Source: Ferruginibacter sp.
GTDB taxonomy: Bacteria; Bacteroidota; Bacteroidia; Chitinophagales; Chitinophagaceae
Reading direction: 5' to 3'
NCBI RefSeq assembly: GCF_028288465.1
Contig: NZ_JAQBNR010000016.1
Location: 121,213-185,212 of the forward strand
Length of the DNA stretch: 64,000 bases
Made by a program: the position numbers and the translations under genes. Of the stretch, positions 1 through 10,954 are shown in pieces. The notes under the pieces are model-generated. The model was not told the DNA's origin. It was given only the letters and a program-made list of their open reading frames with translations, and made no database searches. Positions within the stretch are counted from its first letter, which is position 1, and every line of letters starts with the position of its first letter.

Positions 1-387
1 GTTACTCAATTATTACATAAGGTTGCTTTATCCTCTTCCATATCACTGGCAAAAGCGGTGGACAACGGCAACAACAACAAATATGTATATGGCACAAAAA
101 ATAACAAGGCAATCAACTACAGTTTATCAATTGGAAAATTAATGTTACCGAAGGAATACAGTAATTACCATCAGACAAATATAAACCTGATGGTAGAAAC
201 CTTAAGCCAGGTTAATACCGGATCAGGAAAATATTACCTGGATATTGCGCCTTCCATTCAATTGATATTTAACAGCGAAAGCAGGATAGATATAGGCTAT
301 AGAAAACAAGTAAGCAGCAGTTTATTAAGAACCGCACCAAATGGATTTTTTATCCGGCTGGAGCATAACTTTTTTAATGCTTTTTAA
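1..387 (+). CDS. C-terminal part of an outer-membrane beta-barrel-like protein (5' end outside window)
   Basis: The frame is open from base 1, so this is the 3' end of a longer gene; the GTG at 58 is only an internal codon. The visible 128 residues alternate polar and hydrophobic residues in short strand-like stretches, and the protein ends in an aromatic residue (NAF), as outer-membrane barrels often do. The last segments, around GYRKQ and FFIRLEHNFF, read like closing beta-strands. No catalytic motif is visible. A barrel or transporter-like outer-membrane protein is an inference from this pattern; the family cannot be named from this fragment. Confidence 0.45.
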   Translation, partial: VTQLLHKVALSSSISLAKAVDNGNNNKYVYGTKNNKAINYSLSIGKLMLPKEYSNYHQTNINLMVETLSQVNTGSGKYYLDIAPSIQLIFNSESRIDIGYRKQVSSSLLRTAPNGFFIRLEHNFFNAF

Positions 388-549
388 AATCAGCGTTTTA
401 CAATCCCTTCTTTCTATAACTAATCTAAAAGCATCTCTTCGGTAAAAGTAGTAAAAATGGATTGTCCGTTTTTGACATCATGCTGTCCTTTAAGGCGCTG
501 AAAGCCACAATACCTTTACATCATCAAATAGCAGGGAAATAAAAACAAC

Positions 550-744
550 ATGAAAAAAATCTTATTTGGATTACAGGCTGTCGGCTCCGTTGCTTTATTT
601 CTGAAATGTGTATCACTTGAAATAAAGCCGGGCACTGGGAGATTGCCTGGAAATATTGCGGTGCAAATTTCAAAACCCAATTCACATACCAACGGCAATC
701 TTGGAGTGTTCAATCATATAAATCAAATAAAACAAAATAAATAA
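550..744 (+). CDS. Small hypothetical protein, 64 aa
   Basis: The ORF starts MKKILFGL and has a short hydrophobic N-terminus that could be a weak signal or membrane segment, followed by a polar tail with no recognised motif. It ends one base before the next gene, which also starts with MKK, so the two could be cotranscribed. An antisense ORF of similar size exists, and nothing but the start context and the close spacing supports this one. It is not a family I recognise and it may not be expressed. Confidence 0.33.
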   Translation: MKKILFGLQAVGSVALFLKCVSLEIKPGTGRLPGNIAVQISKPNSHTNGNLGVFNHINQIKQNK

Positions 745-745
745 C

Positions 746-1102
746 ATGAAAAAGATATTAGTAATCGCGATAGTCTTATTGTATTCCCAGGCTTCAAATG
801 CCCAGCGGGACACATCTACGATTGAACAATATTGCCAGCTAATCGCTACTCAAAGACTATTGAGCAACAAAGTAACCATTGATATTGACTTTGGTGAAGA
901 GAAAAGTTTTTGGCGGGATACAAGGCTTAAAACTTATGGTGGAAAAATTAAAAAATTTAATACCATTATTGATGCCATGAATTATATGAGTAGAGACGGT
1001 TGGGTATTCATTAACGCCTATCCTGTTCGCATTGGTGAAAGTGAGCGGTATCATTTTGCTTTTAAAAAGCAATTCGCAAAATCTGAAATTCAGGACTACT
1101 AA
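746..1102 (+). CDS. Secreted hypothetical protein, 118 aa
   Basis: A clear signal peptide (MKKILVIAIVLLYSQASNA, cleavage near ANAQ) is followed by a compact domain of about 98 residues. The domain has an acidic stretch around DIDFGEEKSFW and a segment DAMNYMSRDGWVFINAY, which resembles the ending of small Bacteroidota proteins distantly like DUF4177 (a helix, then a tryptophan-containing strand). Export to the periplasm or cell surface is likely. The function is unknown. It directly follows the small ORF at 550-744 and is separated by 116 bases from the lipoprotein gene downstream. Confidence 0.7.
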   Translation: MKKILVIAIVLLYSQASNAQRDTSTIEQYCQLIATQRLLSNKVTIDIDFGEEKSFWRDTRLKTYGGKIKKFNTIIDAMNYMSRDGWVFINAYPVRIGESERYHFAFKKQFAKSEIQDY

Positions 1103-1218
1103 TTCAATACTTAGTCAGTAGAATGGCTGTCATTTTTTGCCGTCTGTTTTTGACGGCAGATTCTCCGAAAAAATATTAATTACAAGGCATTTTTTTGCCA
1201 TCAAAAACTATCATCATC

Positions 1219-2400
1219 ATGAAAATATTTAAAACTTCAGCTTTAGCAGTAAGCTTATTATTGTTAGCAGCAATATGCTTAAATGCTTGCGGACCTGTTC
1301 GCAATCTTACACATCCGCCAGCCCCCTGGCAGGGTGAACGTAATTTTGAGATCAAAAAGCTGGTTCATGATACGACAAAAAAAAATGTCTTCATCATAGC
1401 AGACTCCAGATTGACCGTACTGTTTGATATGTTGGCTCCATTCTATTTATTCAATGCAACTGAAAAAGCCAATGTGTATATCATTACAAAAGACAAAACG
1501 CCCATTTTAATAAAGCGGGACCTGTTTGTAGCACCACAATTAACTTTTGACGAAGCCGATGCTATGCAACTGCAGGCTGATGTTATTGTAATTCCGGCCT
1601 TATCAACAAGAGATGAGCAGCAGGATCCGGTAATCATCCATTGGATAAAAACCCATTTTACACCAACCACTAAAATGCTGGCCGTATGTGATGGCGCATC
1701 TACTGCAGCTGCCACCGGGCTCTACGATGGCAAACCATTAACCTGTCATGCATCTGACTTTACCGGTTTGAAAAAACACTTCAGTAAACCGGATTGGATA
1801 AAAGATGTTGCGGTTGCAAATAGCGGCAATCTTTACAGTACCGCGGGTGTATCCAATGCTGTGGAAGGCAGCCTTACGGTTATCAATGAATTGTTTGGCA
1901 GGGAAACAATGCAAACCGTTTTGACAAGTATCTCTTACCCCGGCAATGCAATAAAAACAGCACATACAAGTGTGGCACTCGGTGGCAGCAATATATTTAC
2001 TGTGGTTAAAAAAGTTATGTTTAGAAAGAACAGGAACATAGGTATGCTGCTCGACAATGGAATGAATGAATTTGAAATGGCAAGCATCATAGAGACCTAT
2101 GGCCGCACTTTCCCGGCATCGTTTACCACTTTCAATTTAAACGACTCTACTATCCATACAAAATATGGACTGACATTGATAAATACAGGTAAAGCCCGGT
2201 TAAAAGGATTGGATGAAGTGCACTTATTGAAATCCTCCTCATTTCCAAAAGTTGGCGGATCGATTTTTAACAATGCTAAAATAATCTGTTACGATACAGT
2301 CCAATCCCAATACCCGATTGATATTTGTTTGAAAAGAATCAATGAGCAATATGGAACCCGGTTCGGCGAATTTGTAAAAATATCGCTGGATTACAACTAA
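1219..2400 (+). CDS. DJ-1/PfpI-like domain lipoprotein
   Basis: I prefer the ATG at 1219 over the upstream in-frame start at 1195 because it places a normal lipoprotein signal at the N-terminus, with lipobox LNAC and the lipidated Cys at residue 24. The body (about residues 45-240) has the fold order of the DJ-1/PfpI glutamine-amidotransferase-like superfamily: a first strand KKNVFIIAD and a nucleophile elbow AVCDGAS with Cys about 157. A second stretch after residue 260 (NIGMLLDNGMNEFEMASII) looks like the start of another DJ-1-type unit. Members of this superfamily act as amidases, chaperones or glyoxalases, or as sensor domains of AraC regulators; the substrate is not predictable. Membrane anchoring is unusual for this fold. 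The protein is 393 aa. Confidence 0.75.
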   Translation: MKIFKTSALAVSLLLLAAICLNACGPVRNLTHPPAPWQGERNFEIKKLVHDTTKKNVFIIADSRLTVLFDMLAPFYLFNATEKANVYIITKDKTPILIKRDLFVAPQLTFDEADAMQLQADVIVIPALSTRDEQQDPVIIHWIKTHFTPTTKMLAVCDGASTAAATGLYDGKPLTCHASDFTGLKKHFSKPDWIKDVAVANSGNLYSTAGVSNAVEGSLTVINELFGRETMQTVLTSISYPGNAIKTAHTSVALGGSNIFTVVKKVMFRKNRNIGMLLDNGMNEFEMASIIETYGRTFPASFTTFNLNDSTIHTKYGLTLINTGKARLKGLDEVHLLKSSSFPKVGGSIFNNAKIICYDTVQSQYPIDICLKRINEQYGTRFGEFVKISLDYN

Positions 2401-2467
2401 TAAGTTAACGCAAAAATAAAATCAATAAAAAGAATATAATCACTAACGATAAACTTAAATAAAGGTT

Positions 2468-2893
2468 ATGAAAAAACTACACACAGTTATCTTTTTGACT
2501 TTACTGTCACTATTTTCACAGGCATTTATGGAGATGAAAAATATTTCTCCCAATGAAATTATCGGGATATACTGGTCGCCTAAAAAAGATGCAAAAATTG
2601 AAATTTATATAAAGGGGCAGCAATACTTTGGGAAATTTATATGGCTGGCAACACCCAAAAAGGACACTAAAAACCCGGCAAAAGAATTACAAAGCAGGGA
2701 TGTGCTGGGATTGGAATTGTTAACTAAGTTTTCTTACAATAACGGGGTATACAGTGGCGGTGAAATATATGATCCGGAAACTGGTAAAACGTACTCCTGC
2801 AAAATGAACCTGGAAGGCGATAAACTTAAAGTAAGAGGATATGTTGGCATTTCTCTGTTTGGCCGCACTGAATATTTTGAAAGAATAAAATAA
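2468..2893 (+). CDS. DUF2147-like secreted protein, 141 aa
   Basis: An N-terminal signal peptide (about residues 1-19) precedes a single domain. The domain contains the typical DUF2147 pattern: a start like IIGIYWSPKKDAKIEIY, a central GGEIYDPETGKTYSCKM, and a final LKVRGYVGISLFGRTEYFER. DUF2147 proteins are small periplasmic proteins of unknown function, common in Bacteroidota and Proteobacteria. The length fits the family. The ATG is well supported by the signal peptide. It sits 67 bases after the DJ-1-like lipoprotein and 28 bases before a small membrane protein gene, which suggests one transcript. Confidence 0.82.
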   Translation: MKKLHTVIFLTLLSLFSQAFMEMKNISPNEIIGIYWSPKKDAKIEIYIKGQQYFGKFIWLATPKKDTKNPAKELQSRDVLGLELLTKFSYNNGVYSGGEIYDPETGKTYSCKMNLEGDKLKVRGYVGISLFGRTEYFERIK

Positions 2894-2921
2894 AAACATT
2901 GACATATTAAACGACAAAACA

Positions 2922-3323
2922 ATGGCTGCAACAATCATCGGAATTTCTTCGGGGCTTTTAATAATATTATTGATTGGTCTTTTAAAACAACTGGATAAAA
3001 AGATAATTTATGGCATGGCACTTGCAGGAATTGGATTTCTCTACGTTGGCTTTGCCTGGACGAATTTGCAGGCACTCGTTGTAAATTGTGCGCAGGCAAT
3101 CCTGTTCTTGTTCCTGGCCTATTATGGAATTAAAAAGAGCCTCAACTTTTTGGCTGCAGGGTATTTCCTGCATGGCTGCTGGGATATTGCATACCACTAT
3201 TTTCAGGACCCCGGATTAATTCCCCCGCACTACGATTTATTTTGTTCCTCGCTCGACTTTACCATTGCTGTATACCTTTTGATTCTTAACAAGCGAAACT
3301 TGAAAATGAAGGCACATAATTAA
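2922..3323 (+). CDS. Four-helix membrane protein, DUF6010-like
   Basis: The protein is 133 aa with four hydrophobic helices. The conserved-looking motif LHGCWDIAYHYF between helices 3 and 4 resembles the HGxWDxxHH signature I associate with DUF6010 proteins. No enzymatic role is known for that family; the clustered His/Trp/Asp residues could bind a metal or proton, but that is speculation. The ATG at 2922 has an ordinary AT-rich leader. It lies 12 bases upstream of the CxxC-AraC regulator, so it is probably cotranscribed with it. Confidence 0.6.
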   Translation: MAATIIGISSGLLIILLIGLLKQLDKKIIYGMALAGIGFLYVGFAWTNLQALVVNCAQAILFLFLAYYGIKKSLNFLAAGYFLHGCWDIAYHYFQDPGLIPPHYDLFCSSLDFTIAVYLLILNKRNLKMKAHN

Positions 3324-3335
3324 AATAGCATCGTT

Positions 3336-3911
3336 ATGACTTCAACAACATTACTTATTAAAAACATGGTATGTCATCGCTGCATACTTGCGGTGGAGGA
3401 CATTTTAAAAAAGGAATCAATCCCCTTTCAAAATGTAAATTTTGGTGAGATCAATTTGGTGGAAAACCTATCGCCGGACCAACAGGAGCGGCTGGTAAAT
3501 AAGCTGGATAAAATTGGCTTTGAACTGATTGACAATTATACCGGCGGACTCATTGAAAAAATTAAGCAGGTTGTAATTAAACGGGCCCGGAATGAAGTTG
3601 ACGAAAGGGAAAGTAAAATAAAACTGTCACATTATCTTACCGGAAAAGTGAGTCATGAATACACTTACCTGAGCAGTTTATTTTCTTCTGTTGAAGGAAG
3701 AACTATTGAAAATTATTTTATTGAACAGCGGATTGAAAAAGCCAAAGAGCTATTAATTTACGGGCAACTGACTTTATCGCAAATTGCCTTTGATCTTGAG
3801 TACAGCAGTACGGCACATCTCTCCTCCCAATTTAAAAAAATAACCGGGCTAACGCCTACTTACTTTAAAGAGATTGGTATTGCAAAGCGTAAATCGCTGG
3901 ATAAAATTTAA
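3336..3911 (+). CDS. AraC-family regulator with N-terminal heavy-metal-associated-like domain
   Basis: Residues 1-65 resemble an HMA/ferredoxin-like metal-binding domain with the sequence NMVCHRC (Cys13 and Cys16, a CxxC site). Residues about 95-190 form an AraC-type double helix-turn-helix, including LTLSQIAFDLEYSSTAHLSSQFKK and the ending GLTPTYFKE. The protein is 191 aa, short because the HMA-like domain replaces the usual sugar-sensing domain. Related Bacteroidota regulators of this architecture are often found beside metal-homeostasis genes. The next gene is a cysteine-rich metallothionein-like peptide, which makes metal-responsive control of that peptide plausible. The sensing metal cannot be read from the sequence. 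Confidence 0.82.
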   Translation: MTSTTLLIKNMVCHRCILAVEDILKKESIPFQNVNFGEINLVENLSPDQQERLVNKLDKIGFELIDNYTGGLIEKIKQVVIKRARNEVDERESKIKLSHYLTGKVSHEYTYLSSLFSSVEGRTIENYFIEQRIEKAKELLIYGQLTLSQIAFDLEYSSTAHLSSQFKKITGLTPTYFKEIGIAKRKSLDKI

Positions 3912-3919
3912 ACCCAAAA

Positions 3920-3927
3920 TTGTACAA
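3920..3927. promoter_or_regulatory. Short palindrome, possible operator
   Basis: The perfect 8-base palindrome TTGTACAA lies 8 bases after the regulator stop codon and about 45 bases upstream of the -7-like element of the cysteine-rich peptide gene. Its position suits an operator for the adjacent regulator, but AraC proteins usually bind direct repeats, so the role is tentative. Confidence 0.25.
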
Positions 3928-3970
3928 CGTTTACCCAAAGTAATGTAACAACCACCCCTCTTTCTCCAAC

Positions 3971-3978
3971 TACTTTTG
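3971..3978 (+). promoter_or_regulatory. Bacteroidota-type -7 element (TACTTTTG)
   Basis: TACTTTTG fits the Bacteroidota consensus TAnnTTTG exactly and lies 31 bases before the ATG of the metallothionein-like gene. No convincing -33 TTG is visible, which could mean activator dependence. Confidence 0.4.
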
Positions 3979-4009
3979 TGATATCAAATAAAAATTAAAA
4001 AATAAAAAC

Positions 4010-4126
4010 ATGAAATCAACGACAACAAAAAACCAGGGCGCACAAAATGTAAAATGCAGTAACCCAAACTGCGACTGTCTTAACTGCAACTGCGGTGCTG
4101 ACTGTACTTGTGCAAATTGTAAGTAA
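4010..4126 (+). CDS. Metallothionein-like cysteine-rich peptide, 38 aa
   Basis: This short ORF encodes 38 residues with eight cysteines at positions 16, 21, 23, 26, 28, 32, 34 and 37, giving C-x4-C-x-C-x2-C-x-C-x3-C-x-C-x2-C. The spacing, with three CxC pairs and no aromatic residues or histidines, is what thiolate metal-cluster proteins look like. The polar N-terminus (MKSTTTKNQGAQNV) has no export signal, so the peptide should be cytoplasmic. It has its own promoter-like element at 3971 and a strong terminator at 4151, and it follows the CxxC-AraC regulator. The role inferred is binding soft metals (Cu(I), Zn, Cd). I cannot assign it to a named metallothionein family. Confidence 0.75.
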   Translation: MKSTTTKNQGAQNVKCSNPNCDCLNCNCGADCTCANCK

Positions 4127-4150
4127 GTTAATCCTGTTGAAGCAACCTCC

Positions 4151-4179
4151 AGCCGTTCCTTATAGGGGCGGCTTTTTTT
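4151..4179 (+). terminator. Intrinsic terminator after the cysteine-rich peptide gene
   Basis: A 9-bp stem (AGCCGTTCC / GGGGCGGCT, with two G-U pairs) and a TTATA loop are followed by a run of seven T. It sits 24 bases after the stop codon, which supports the short gene being a real transcription unit. Confidence 0.8.
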
Positions 4180-4312
4180 ATGTCTGTTTATGACAGAAGT
4201 TTGTCTTCCCGGATTATCCCATTACGGATAACTTTATGTTCAGAGCACCTGTAAAAATCAAAATAAGTTCAGACATAAATGGCTCACCAAATAAATACTT
4301 ATACCACGATAG

Positions 4313-4505
4313 ATGAATGGTCAAAGTAAGGCAGCTGCAAAATGCATATAATTTAGCGTGACAAAAGTATTTTCTGATGCCGGGGTAAATTTTGACTTGC
4401 ATAATTCCGAAAAGTTTTTTGATTAAATGGAAGGAAAATTCCCATACAGAGGAACTTGAAAAAGATCTGAATAACCTGGGATTTAAATGTGAAATTTTAA
4501 ATTAA
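4313..4505 (+). pseudogene. Decayed small CxxC/HMA-like domain gene
   Basis: From the ATG at 4313 the frame reads MNGQSKAAAKCI, meets a TAA at 4349-4351, then continues as FSVTKVFSDAGVNFDLHNSEKF. At a run of six T a one-base shift restores a tail IKWKENSHTEELEKDLNNL, then GFKCEILN, ending at 4505. The reconstructed tail resembles the C-terminal half of the metal-binding-like domain of the regulator at 3336 (both have a DKIGFEL/NNLGFKCEI-type ending). An old HMA-like gene is inferred; the family call is tentative, but the two-frame continuity suggests a decayed coding region. Confidence 0.42.
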
Positions 4506-4546
4506 CTTGACACAGGTTAGCTGTAGCAGGGTTAAAATATAAATGA

Positions 4547-6070
4547 ATGAAAAAGAAAATAAACATCTTAATACTCTTTGTAATTGCGAAATTGCTGCTG
4601 CAATACATGGTAGTGGGCCAGGAATATGAGTTGCACAGGGACGAGTTTTTACATCTTGACCAGGCAAAACATTTGGCCTGGGGATATACCTCGGTACCTC
4701 CTGTTACAAGCTGGATTTCCAGCATCATCATCTTTTTAGGCAACTCCCTTTTTTGGGTTAGATTTTTTCCTGCTTTATTTGGTGCGCTGACAATAGTAGT
4801 TGTCTGGAAAACCATTGAAGCATTGAACGGAAATCTTTTTGCATTGATATCAGGCGCCACCTGCGTATTATTTTCCGCTCTTCTGCGATTGAACTTATTA
4901 TATCATCCCAATTCGCTGGATGTACTTTGCTGGACCACCTTTTGCTTTGTTCTAGTGAAATACTCCAATGATGAACATCCGAAATGGTTTTACATAGCAA
5001 TGACTGTGTTTGCTATCGGTTTTTTAAATAAATATAATATTGTCTTTTTGCTGGCAGGACTTGTGCCCGCTCTCATACTAACAAGGCGCCCGGTTTTTAC
5101 CAATAAACATTTTTACCTTTCAATTTTACCTGGCCTCGCATTGATTTCACCCAATCTTGCATGGCAGTATAACAACCACTTTCCTGTATTTCACCATTTG
5201 GAACAGTTGGCTAAAACACAGTTGGTTAATGTAAACAGGTGGAGTTTTTTAAAAGATCAGTTGCTATTTTTTATCGGCTCATTGTTGGTGATTTTTTCAG
5301 CACTGTATGCACTGTTATTTTACCCGCCGTTCAAAAAATACAGGTTTTTCTTTTGGACACTGTGCTTTACGCTGGCAATTTTTACTTACCTGAAAGCAAA
5401 AAGCTACTATGCCATCGGATTATATCCAGTTTACATAGCTTTTGGTTCCGTTTACCTCGAAAGGACTTTACAACCTGGCTGGAAAAAATACTTAAAGCCC
5501 CTTGTAATAGCCCTGCCATTATTATTTTTCATCCCTCTATACAAAATAATATTTCCAAATAAAAGCCCCGCCTATATTGCAGGTCATCCAGGAGCATATA
5601 AAAATTGGGGCTTATTACGCTGGGAAGACGGCAAAGACCATTCCCTGCCACAGGACTTTGCAGACATGCTTGGCTGGAAAGAGCTGGCGCACAAGATTGA
5701 CTCAATTGATTCAACGCTTCCGGAGCGTGAACACACGCTCATTCTTTGTGACAATTATGGCCAGGCCGGGGCTATCAATTACTATACAAAAAATAAAAAC
5801 AACAGGGCCGTTTCTTTTAATGCAGATTATATCAACTGGTTTGTACTGGATACAAAATTTGTTAATCTGATAAGGGTAAAAACAGTGGAGGGCGTAGGCA
5901 GTGAACTCAAAAAATCAAGTCCTTTTTTTGACACTGCGTATGTAGCAGGGGCAATAACAAATTCTTTTGCCAGGGAATATGGAACAACCATATTTGTTTT
6001 TATAAAGGCTAAGATTGATATCAATAAAAGAATACAGAACGAAATTGATGAAGTGAAAAACGATCGCTGA
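4547..6070 (+). CDS. GT39-type (ArnT/PMT-like) membrane glycosyltransferase
   Basis: The protein is 507 aa with about 10 transmembrane helices in the first 340 residues. The first periplasmic loop carries HRDEFLHLDQAKHLAWGY, matching the YRDELYYL-type segment of GT39/dolichyl-phosphate-mannose-transferase-like enzymes, where the acidic residue takes part in catalysis. The C-terminal 150 residues form a soluble periplasmic domain. Such enzymes transfer a sugar from a polyprenyl-phosphate donor to lipids or proteins on the outer face of the inner membrane. The donor and acceptor here are unknown. It stands alone, with the nearest gene 198 bases downstream. Confidence 0.85.
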   Translation: MKKKINILILFVIAKLLLQYMVVGQEYELHRDEFLHLDQAKHLAWGYTSVPPVTSWISSIIIFLGNSLFWVRFFPALFGALTIVVVWKTIEALNGNLFALISGATCVLFSALLRLNLLYHPNSLDVLCWTTFCFVLVKYSNDEHPKWFYIAMTVFAIGFLNKYNIVFLLAGLVPALILTRRPVFTNKHFYLSILPGLALISPNLAWQYNNHFPVFHHLEQLAKTQLVNVNRWSFLKDQLLFFIGSLLVIFSALYALLFYPPFKKYRFFFWTLCFTLAIFTYLKAKSYYAIGLYPVYIAFGSVYLERTLQPGWKKYLKPLVIALPLLFFIPLYKIIFPNKSPAYIAGHPGAYKNWGLLRWEDGKDHSLPQDFADMLGWKELAHKIDSIDSTLPEREHTLILCDNYGQAGAINYYTKNKNNRAVSFNADYINWFVLDTKFVNLIRVKTVEGVGSELKKSSPFFDTAYVAGAITNSFAREYGTTIFVFIKAKIDINKRIQNEIDEVKNDR

Positions 6071-6268
6071 TATGGCTAAAGCTGCAAAGGAAAGCCATGG
6101 ATTCGGGTTCAATTTGCTACACGGTTGGCAGCTTAAATATTTATCCGGTAATTTTAAAATATCCGTGAAACTGAAAGCAATTTAACTGTCTGTAATTGAC
6201 ACCATCTTGTCCGGCTCTCAGCAAAACATCGCTTTACCTTTATTAAATAATTTAAAGAACAAAATAAT

Positions 6269-7183
6269 ATGCAAAAGGTAGCCTTTATCATCCCTCCTGC
6301 GGTCGAACTGCTGGACCTTGCCGGTCCTGTCCAGGTTTTTACAGAAGCTAAATTTTATGGTTTCGAAATAGAAATGGAATTTTATCAGTACAGCGAGGAA
6401 CCCGTTAGCACGGCCGGCCTTGGATTTGGTAAAATTGAAAATTATAAAAAAGCAAAATTAAAAGAAGGAGATTTTGTTTTTGTACCCGGCATGGACAACG
6501 ACTATATTAACAGTATTCCATTTAAAGCCGAAAGGGCATTCTTTAACTGGCTGAAAGAATGTTCGGAAAAGAAAGTAATTGTATGTTCAATTTGCAACGG
6601 TGCTTTTGCGTTGGGGCATGCAGGACTGCTGAAAGATACCGAATGTACCACGCACTGGAGAAGAGTGAAGGCCTTACAAACACAGTTTCCACAGGCAAAA
6701 GTAGTTGAAGATATCCTATACATAAAAAGCAACAATGTTTACACAAGCGCAGGTATCAGTGCCGGTATTGACCTGGCATTAGCCATTCTTGAAGATTTAA
6801 AAGGTGCACTGTTTACGCATAAAGTTGCCCGTGGACTGGTTGTTTATCACAGAAGGAGCGGCAGGCATAAGCAACAAAGCATATACCTCGACTACAGGAA
6901 TCACATCAATCCCCAGGTACATGAGGTGCAGGATCACCTGATTGATAATCTTTCCAAAGAGAACAGTATTGAATCCCTGGCGTCGCTGGTGGGTATGAGT
7001 CCAAGAAATCTGAGCAGGGTGTTTAAAGAAAAAACGGGCTCTACGGTATTGGAATATTTAACACTGCTACGAAAAGAGTATGCTAATACAATGCTGAATA
7101 ATCCTGATTATACTATTGAATATATCGCCTCCCAGTGCGGCTTTAAAACAGCAAGACAATTACAGCGAATCTTAAAAAACTGA
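6269..7183 (+). CDS. GlxA/FtrA-type transcriptional regulator (DJ-1/PfpI domain + AraC HTH)
   Basis: Residues 1-175 form a DJ-1/PfpI-like domain beginning KVAFIIPPAVELLDLAGPVQVF, with nucleophile-elbow cysteine in CSICNGAF. Residues about 215-304 are an AraC double helix-turn-helix (SIESLASLVGMSPRNLSRVFKE and DYTIEYIASQCGF). At 304 aa the length is typical for this regulator class. These proteins respond to small metabolites such as arginine, carnitine or aldehydes through the DJ-1 domain, although catalysis is usually lost. The target is unknown; no operon partner is adjacent. It differs from the DJ-1-like lipoprotein at 1219, which has no DNA-binding domain. Confidence 0.9.
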   Translation: MQKVAFIIPPAVELLDLAGPVQVFTEAKFYGFEIEMEFYQYSEEPVSTAGLGFGKIENYKKAKLKEGDFVFVPGMDNDYINSIPFKAERAFFNWLKECSEKKVIVCSICNGAFALGHAGLLKDTECTTHWRRVKALQTQFPQAKVVEDILYIKSNNVYTSAGISAGIDLALAILEDLKGALFTHKVARGLVVYHRRSGRHKQQSIYLDYRNHINPQVHEVQDHLIDNLSKENSIESLASLVGMSPRNLSRVFKEKTGSTVLEYLTLLRKEYANTMLNNPDYTIEYIASQCGFKTARQLQRILKN

Positions 7184-10511: not shown

Positions 10512-10954
10512 GATAAATATTTTTAAGTGAATGATTTCTTTGCTGGCACAAAAGTAGTTTTTGCAGTGGCTTCCGTAGTAGGACAAACGTGCAATTGTAT
10601 AGCACATTTTTAAAACCAGTGTAACCAGGTTTAGCGGCGGCATCGGCACATAACCTTCATCCACGGCTTTTTTAAAAACTTCAGAAACAATAACATGGGG
10701 CGGTGCTGCTTCCAGCCTTAAAACTCATTACCAATAATAGGTACCTGATAAAGATGCCCAAATTGAATTATAAAAAATAACAGAGGGCATTATTCTGCTA
10801 TCAAAATATTTGTAAATAAAGGAATTGTTTTTAAAGAGAGAAACGGACAGCAAACTGTGCAGGCTAATCCTAAAGTAATTTAACATTTAGCATACTCAAC
10901 ATGGTAATCGATACCTTTTTGAGCGTTATAATACTCAATATAAATGTAAAAAAT
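10512..10954. other. Intergenic stretch without a recognisable gene
   Basis: Between the small membrane protein and the terminator at 10955, about 440 bases show no convincing coding frame on either strand and no RNA gene. The 5' extension of the minus-strand ORF into this stretch has no family-like sequence. Confidence 0.5.

Follow-up and report, generated by a model that had tools for sequence, protein, structure and literature searches.

Among the described systems closest to the locus considered here is SmtA/SmtB of Synechococcus, in which the gene of a dedicated metal regulator lies beside that of a small cysteine-rich metal-binding protein (operon structure as outlined in PMC7387436). 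A comparable arrangement is MymT of Mycobacterium tuberculosis, a small, cysteine-rich copper metallothionein of the RicR regulon whose open reading frame (ORF) was originally non-annotated (PMC7558416 and PMC10141476); RicR is a CsoR homologue according to PMC10141476. The present analysis concerns 64,000 nucleotides from Ferruginibacter sp. of the Chitinophagaceae, phylum Bacteroidota (assembly GCF_028288465.1, contig NZ_JAQBNR010000016.1, positions 121,213 to 185,212 of the forward strand; this whole stretch is the window), and within it a regulator, here called HMA-AraC, and a neighbouring metallothionein-like peptide. Sequence comparison indicates that the two are a real, conserved unit, joined by a predicted tandem operator, which by analogy would work like smtB-smtA or ricR-mymT, built from other parts. 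SmtB, which we take to be a member of the ArsR family, differs from the regulator found here, in which a CopZ-like domain is fused to AraC and a tandem direct repeat is predicted at an activator position; the peptide also stands apart from SmtA in matching no metallothionein family model, and copper rather than zinc is the metal inferred. The MymT system differs in its CsoR-like regulator, and MymT is set beside the peptide by its description in the papers cited above, not by sequence.

An earlier note on this DNA had proposed a self-contained metal sensing and sequestration unit in which an AraC protein, rather than SmtB/ArsR or MerR, controls a bacterial metallothionein, with a decayed HMA-like gene as a further member. 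As a whole, this interpretation is partly supported. The features that carry the argument are as follows:

3336..3911, + strand: HMA-AraC regulator, 191 residues (PF12833 match, hhalign, AlphaFold, fold matches)
3372..3383, + strand: CHRC (CxxC), candidate metal site, residues 13-16, in the β1-α1 loop of the modelled domain
3913..3950, + strand: predicted operator, with half-sites CCCAAAATTGTACAA and CCCAAAGTAATGTAA in direct repeat at a period of 21 bp
3971..3978, + strand: TAnnTTTG element TACTTTTG, a promoter of the Bacteroidota -7 type, 20 nt after the operator
4010..4126, + strand: metallothionein-like peptide of 38 residues and eight cysteines (ORF, relatives, pS/pN)
4151..4180, + strand: intrinsic terminator for the transcript of the peptide, with a stem at 4151-4173 and a T-run

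The regulator comprises a CopZ-like domain (residues 4-65 of the AlphaFold model), a linker helix (68-84) and an AraC DNA-binding domain (about 90-190). It starts with MTSTTLLIKNMVCHRC and has an N-terminal KNMVCHRC, with the NMVCHRC site that the earlier note had pointed out. The AraC model PF12833 is matched at 59.6 bits (cutoff 33.6), and the two helix-turn-helix motifs of an AraC/XylS DNA-binding domain are present. Only AraC-type models match the regulator in Pfam and NCBIfam, with no ArsR or MerR DNA-binding domain, so that the assignment to AraC has held. The N-terminal domain is aligned to HMA domains by hhalign and is modelled by AlphaFold as a CopZ/Atx1-like β-α-β-β-α-β fold with the CxxC at the β1-α1 metal loop, as in the HMA chaperones; comparisons of structure models give fold matches for both this domain and the DNA-binding domain. 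It differs from the CopZ/Atx1 chaperones in being fused to a DNA-binding domain and in not being called by the Pfam HMA model (at E ≤ 0.1 the regulator has no match to PF00403, a model that does recognise other proteins encoded in these clusters). Both cysteines of the CxxC are invariant across 16 N-domains (alignment A4), and the domain is predicted, from its modelled fold, to sense metal. The AraC/XylS activators share the DNA-binding domain and direct-repeat half-sites near the promoter, 21 bp apart here and presumably at a comparable spacing in AraC itself; the regulator differs from AraC in having the CopZ-like domain in place of a sugar-binding cupin domain. It is 95% identical to a regulator of Ferruginibacter paludis, and 7488 relatives were found at E ≤ 1e-10, some of which may share the AraC domain only.

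The peptide, MKSTTTKNQGAQNVKCSNPNCDCLNCNCGADCTCANCK, starts 98 nt downstream of the end of the regulator gene. The eight cysteines in 38 residues and the three CxC pairs noted earlier are all in place, and the composition is that of a metallothionein (small, about 20% or more cysteine, CxC and CxxC). Comparison with relatives indicates that the ORF is a real gene. The proportion of synonymous differences (pS) is 0.775 and that of nonsynonymous differences (pN) 0.244 when 15 comparisons with the window, which are not independent, are added up, and seven close rows give 0.573 and 0.142. In an alignment of 11 rows (A1), Cys16, Cys21, Cys23, Cys26, Cys28, Cys34 and Cys37, N18-P19 and G29 are invariant, and the eighth cysteine, Cys32, is nearly so (Tyr in L005 and L022), while both TGT and TGC are used at all eight cysteine positions among the relatives. 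The window peptide, searched with metallothionein models included, matches no Pfam or NCBIfam family at E ≤ 0.1; Metallothio_Euk is reached by two of eight scanned relatives (E 0.053 and 0.66, under its cutoff), and a PDB search gave no significant family. A C-terminal CxCGxxCxCxxC spacing is shared with the copper metallothionein of PDB 1t2y, which we take to be that of Neurospora crassa, at a non-significant E = 3, and this likeness is likely convergence. A CxxC can be redox-active, and together with the missing metallothionein match this would suit a redox-active or regulatory thiol peptide whose regulator senses thiol stress. Such a role is very improbable, given that the CxC/CxxC spacing is conserved with NP and CG, that relatives lie in copper-gene neighbourhoods and that the sensor fold is modelled as CopZ-like.

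Relatives of the metallothionein-like peptide occur in 8 of 244 genomes searched at the family level, the own genome included. With the peptide profile (E ≤ 0.001, own genome included), 3 of 395 genomes of a class sample and 3 of 296 of a phylum sample were matched, which shows it to be rare beyond the family. A collection of species genomes yielded 53 peptide loci, which by record titles are 25 from Bacteroidota, 27 from Actinobacteria and one from an Alphaproteobacterium. When a 40-residue relative was compared with 5.8 billion predicted proteins, only three relatives appeared in a search that needs shared exact words; for this reason, the ORF is probably mostly uncalled in databases. Two variants occur among the relatives. 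In L027 (4579-5123), peptide and operator form a tandem duplicate with identical peptides, and in L043 (5283-5663), a second copy of the cysteine motif lies on a 127-residue protein with an N-terminal hydrophobic segment, which suggests a membrane-anchored version. The terminator claimed for the peptide is present as a 10-bp stem and T-run, with a fold z of only -1.31; the terminator scan gave two such sites, and shuffled sequences 1.2. In all 13 loci that were folded from among those having an upstream row, the stop codon is followed by a hairpin; the stem sequences differ, and L020 and L024 have a weak T-run.

The conserved adjacency that the earlier note had asked for was found. The regulator adjoins the peptide in 20 of the 25 Bacteroidota loci, 15 of them regulator-first and five peptide-first (L056, L057, L058, L060 and L070); this count includes L020, where the regulator is a fragment at the contig end. 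In L038, the sequence ends 93 nt before the peptide, and in L029, L030, L042 and L052, no regulator was found in the locus DNA examined. Outside the Bacteroidota, the regulator is beside the peptide in none of 28 loci. In the family sample, the peptide stands beside a regulator homologue in six of its eight genomes. With at most 13 regulator candidates scored per genome, the regulator was found at E ≤ 1e-58 in seven genomes, six of them shared with the pairs (Fisher's exact P 7e-10, kinship uncorrected). The seventh, G084, has the regulator ahead of copA and a CopZ-like gene; the 12 kb examined there contain no peptide of this kind. G081 and G048 have the peptide, and their best matches to the regulator share 45-50% identity with it and are found on other contigs. 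On the regulator tree, which took in only four non-associated rows, 21 of 22 peptide-associated rows fall on one starred branch, and the Mucilaginibacter row L057 lies outside it on a very long branch. One label change suffices (support 64/29), and the tree gives no evidence for an independent gain of the link.

Regulator and peptide are joined by a predicted operator. Upstream of the peptide, the 38-bp tandem consensus reads CCCAAAATTNTGTAA, six bases, then CCCAAAGTANTGTAA. It occurs in 24 of 26 peptide-upstream rows at 20 or more of 35 consensus letters (not in L029 and L064), the rows including L027 twice and the nearly identical L056 and L057. Self-similarity is maximal at 21 bp, or two DNA turns (0.695; other periods from 10 to 30 reach at most 0.394). 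The site is specific: when the window is excluded from the model, its operator reaches 52.7 bits, the runner-up in the 64 kb 14.1 bits, and the maximum in 40 first-order Markov windows 13.2 bits. A 14.3-bit site at window position 10848 was set aside. In the own genome of 6.88 Mb, the best site among the 150 scored of 5802 first-look candidates is again the window operator (42.4 bits, E 5.6e-10), followed by one of 15.5 bits.

The operator is tied to a promoter. A sigma-70 promoter scan gave nothing above shuffles, and the TAnnTTTG element, which we take to be the Bacteroidota -7 consensus, was used instead; TACTTTTG at 3971-3978 bears out the promoter-like element previously ascribed to the peptide. 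Operator and element are exactly 20 nt apart in 22 of 24 rows, and L024 and L067 have a gap of 19 nt. The repeat is also present in L074, a row scored on its own, which has no TAnnTTTG. In peptide-first loci, the tandem site still precedes the peptide, and a site that tracks the peptide across the flip of gene order fits, as expected, an AraC-type activator site. The second half-site sits at what we assume, from Bacteroidota promoters, to be the place of the -33 box, which would suit an AraC activator of class II. The adjacency conserved in either gene order and the conserved tandem site joined to the promoter of the peptide together give strong support, from sequence, to the view that an AraC-type CxxC protein governs the metallothionein-like peptide.

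Weaker operator-like sites precede HMA-type genes in L096 (own genome), L107 (G048) and L120 (G004), with TAnnTTTG at +20 in L096 and L120 and absent in L107; another, L109 (G257), precedes a CopZ-like gene. The repeats before HMA-type genes suggest that paralogues read similar sites. Variant repeats in L088 and L090 precede genes of other types, and these two, like L096, L107 and L120, are possibly boxes of paralogous HMA-AraC regulators. Most other weak sites, which lie inside ORFs or have no +20 element, were rejected as noise.

As to the metal, copper is favoured as a best guess from the sequences of relatives. A 54% relative of the regulator precedes copA, and the copA of L082 carries GMTCASC, CPC and MALSS, which are presumably marks of copper ATPases. 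In the DNA examined around the 27 actinobacterial peptide loci, a P-type ATPase is present in 12 and a CtaG/CopD-like protein in 13, mostly in Mycolicibacterium, which is one lineage and has ATPases of the Cu type next to the peptide relatives. A multicopper oxidase lies near the peptide in the Bacteroidota loci L024, L052 and L074, the second of which also has a CopB-like ATPase, and the alphaproteobacterial locus L065 has a CsoR-family gene.

The reading that we hold to be rather likely is that the regulator senses cytosolic Cu(I) through its CxxC domain and activates one nearby gene, that of a copper-sequestering metallothionein. Cu(I), perhaps delivered by a chaperone of the CopZ type, would bind C13 and C16 of the regulator. 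The protein, perhaps as a dimer, would occupy both half-sites, the second at the place of the -33 box, and would recruit RNA polymerase as class II AraC-family activators do. The resulting transcript would be short and monocistronic, and the peptide would buffer Cu(I) in thiolate clusters. The regulator is probably made without induction, since its gene lies outside the peptide transcript in the commoner gene order.

Several observations weigh against this reading. The site score shows no significant correlation with regulator identity (Spearman 0.32, P 0.16), and G081 retains the site though its regulator is only distant; for these two reasons, the pairing of regulator and site is one that we infer. 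As regards the metal, no copper enzyme lies beside the pair in the window, and eight Tsukamurella peptide loci (L026, L031, L033, L034, L035, L044, L053 and L059) have no match to the copper-gene queries (P-type ATPase, CtaG/CopD-like). CxxC domains and cysteine-rich peptides generally bind several soft metals, and an identical circuit of HMA-AraC activator, tandem operator and thiolate peptide could serve silver, cadmium, zinc or mercury. This is unlikely: the sole regulator relative of the family sample (E ≤ 1e-58) without a peptide precedes a copA with CPC and MxxSS, and the ATPases and multicopper oxidases listed above point the same way.

The unit of regulator and peptide belongs to a larger cluster that is conserved in Chitinophagaceae, so that only regulator and peptide as a pair can be called self-contained. 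The further features of the surroundings are:

2468..2893, + strand: DUF2147 exported protein, cluster neighbour
2922..3323, + strand: DUF6010 membrane protein, cluster neighbour
4358..4505, + strand: decayed gene of a small HMA-like protein, in two frames with stops
6269..7183, + strand: DJ-1/PfpI-AraC (GlxA/FtrA-like) regulator, cluster neighbour

The cluster spans 58-7183 of the window and L081:13269-14401 and includes outer-membrane and small membrane proteins. The window itself holds the DUF2147, DUF6010, VEQYCQ and exported DJ-1/PfpI proteins and the GlxA-like regulator, and the exported HMA protein lies immediately upstream of it (L081). The most frequent companion in the 25 Bacteroidota loci is a match to the GlxA-like regulator (14), followed by DUF6010 (9), a cyclase-like protein (7), the exported HMA, outer-membrane and VEQYCQ proteins (6 each), exported DJ-1/PfpI (5) and DUF2147 (4). 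The class III cyclase-like protein, found in L037 (3581-4243), L022, L025, L038, L043, L048 and L055, has a Guanylate_cyc match below cutoff and a cysteine-bearing C-terminus, YHS-like by eye; its gene is often just upstream of the regulator in relatives, and none was seen in the window. In the own genome, genes named by eye as an outer-membrane factor, membrane-fusion and RND-pump trio (L081:7753-13239) adjoin the exported HMA gene on its upstream side.

Since this cluster accompanies the pair in Chitinophagaceae, the regulator might mainly serve the cluster (exported HMA, outer-membrane, DUF2147, DUF6010 and GlxA-like proteins), with the peptide as one of several targets. Further operator-like sites, at 6045 of L027 before an esterase-like gene (41.5 bits) and at 2675 of L025 (28.3 bits), fit this idea. 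It is nevertheless improbable, as the genome of the window has one strong site reported, before the peptide, and 10 of the 25 Bacteroidota loci match no cluster query; some of these are short contigs, and L023 and L032 are full 10-kb loci.

The HMA-like remnant is genuine and does not belong to the conserved unit in which the earlier note had placed it. The stretch is homologous to DNA just 3' of the peptide in L022 and L025. The L022 stretch is likewise broken, and the one in L025 is an intact ORF of some 70 residues that has an HMA-like pattern by eye without a CxxC; among the loci examined, only these two have a clear counterpart. The DNA after the peptide matched elsewhere in 9 of 59 genomes of the genus, the own included, over at most 122 bases. 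On these grounds, it was rejected as a member of the unit and is a decaying accessory gene.

No description of the regulator-peptide pairing was found in the literature searched, which leaves many subscription journals and all bioRxiv preprints outside it. For phyla including Bacteroidota, only two-component and extracytoplasmic function (ECF) sigma homologues are reported in PMC10141476, which surveyed how marine bacteria signal copper, and from this, cytosolic copper sensing in the phylum seems poorly described. On a broader proposal, which stands at about an even chance, HMA-AraC proteins would be a distinct class of bacterial cytosolic metal sensors outside ArsR, MerR, CsoR and CopY and the main Cu(I) sensors of Bacteroidota. 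They would bind 21-bp tandem repeats of the CCCAAAATTNTGTAA type one promoter-length before TAnnTTTG; paralogues would drive copA and HMA genes, and this clade would drive a little-noticed family of tiny copper metallothioneins that Actinobacteria also have. For a regulator family of 7488 relatives, the present results predict a metal-sensing domain and a precise DNA site, and provide a direct target. Small copper-sequestering peptides have probably been overlooked well beyond the own genome, as the peptide family has hardly any trace among predicted proteins. If true, the regulator-peptide unit would be a new bacterial route to sense a toxic metal, probably copper, with the peptide soaking up the excess.
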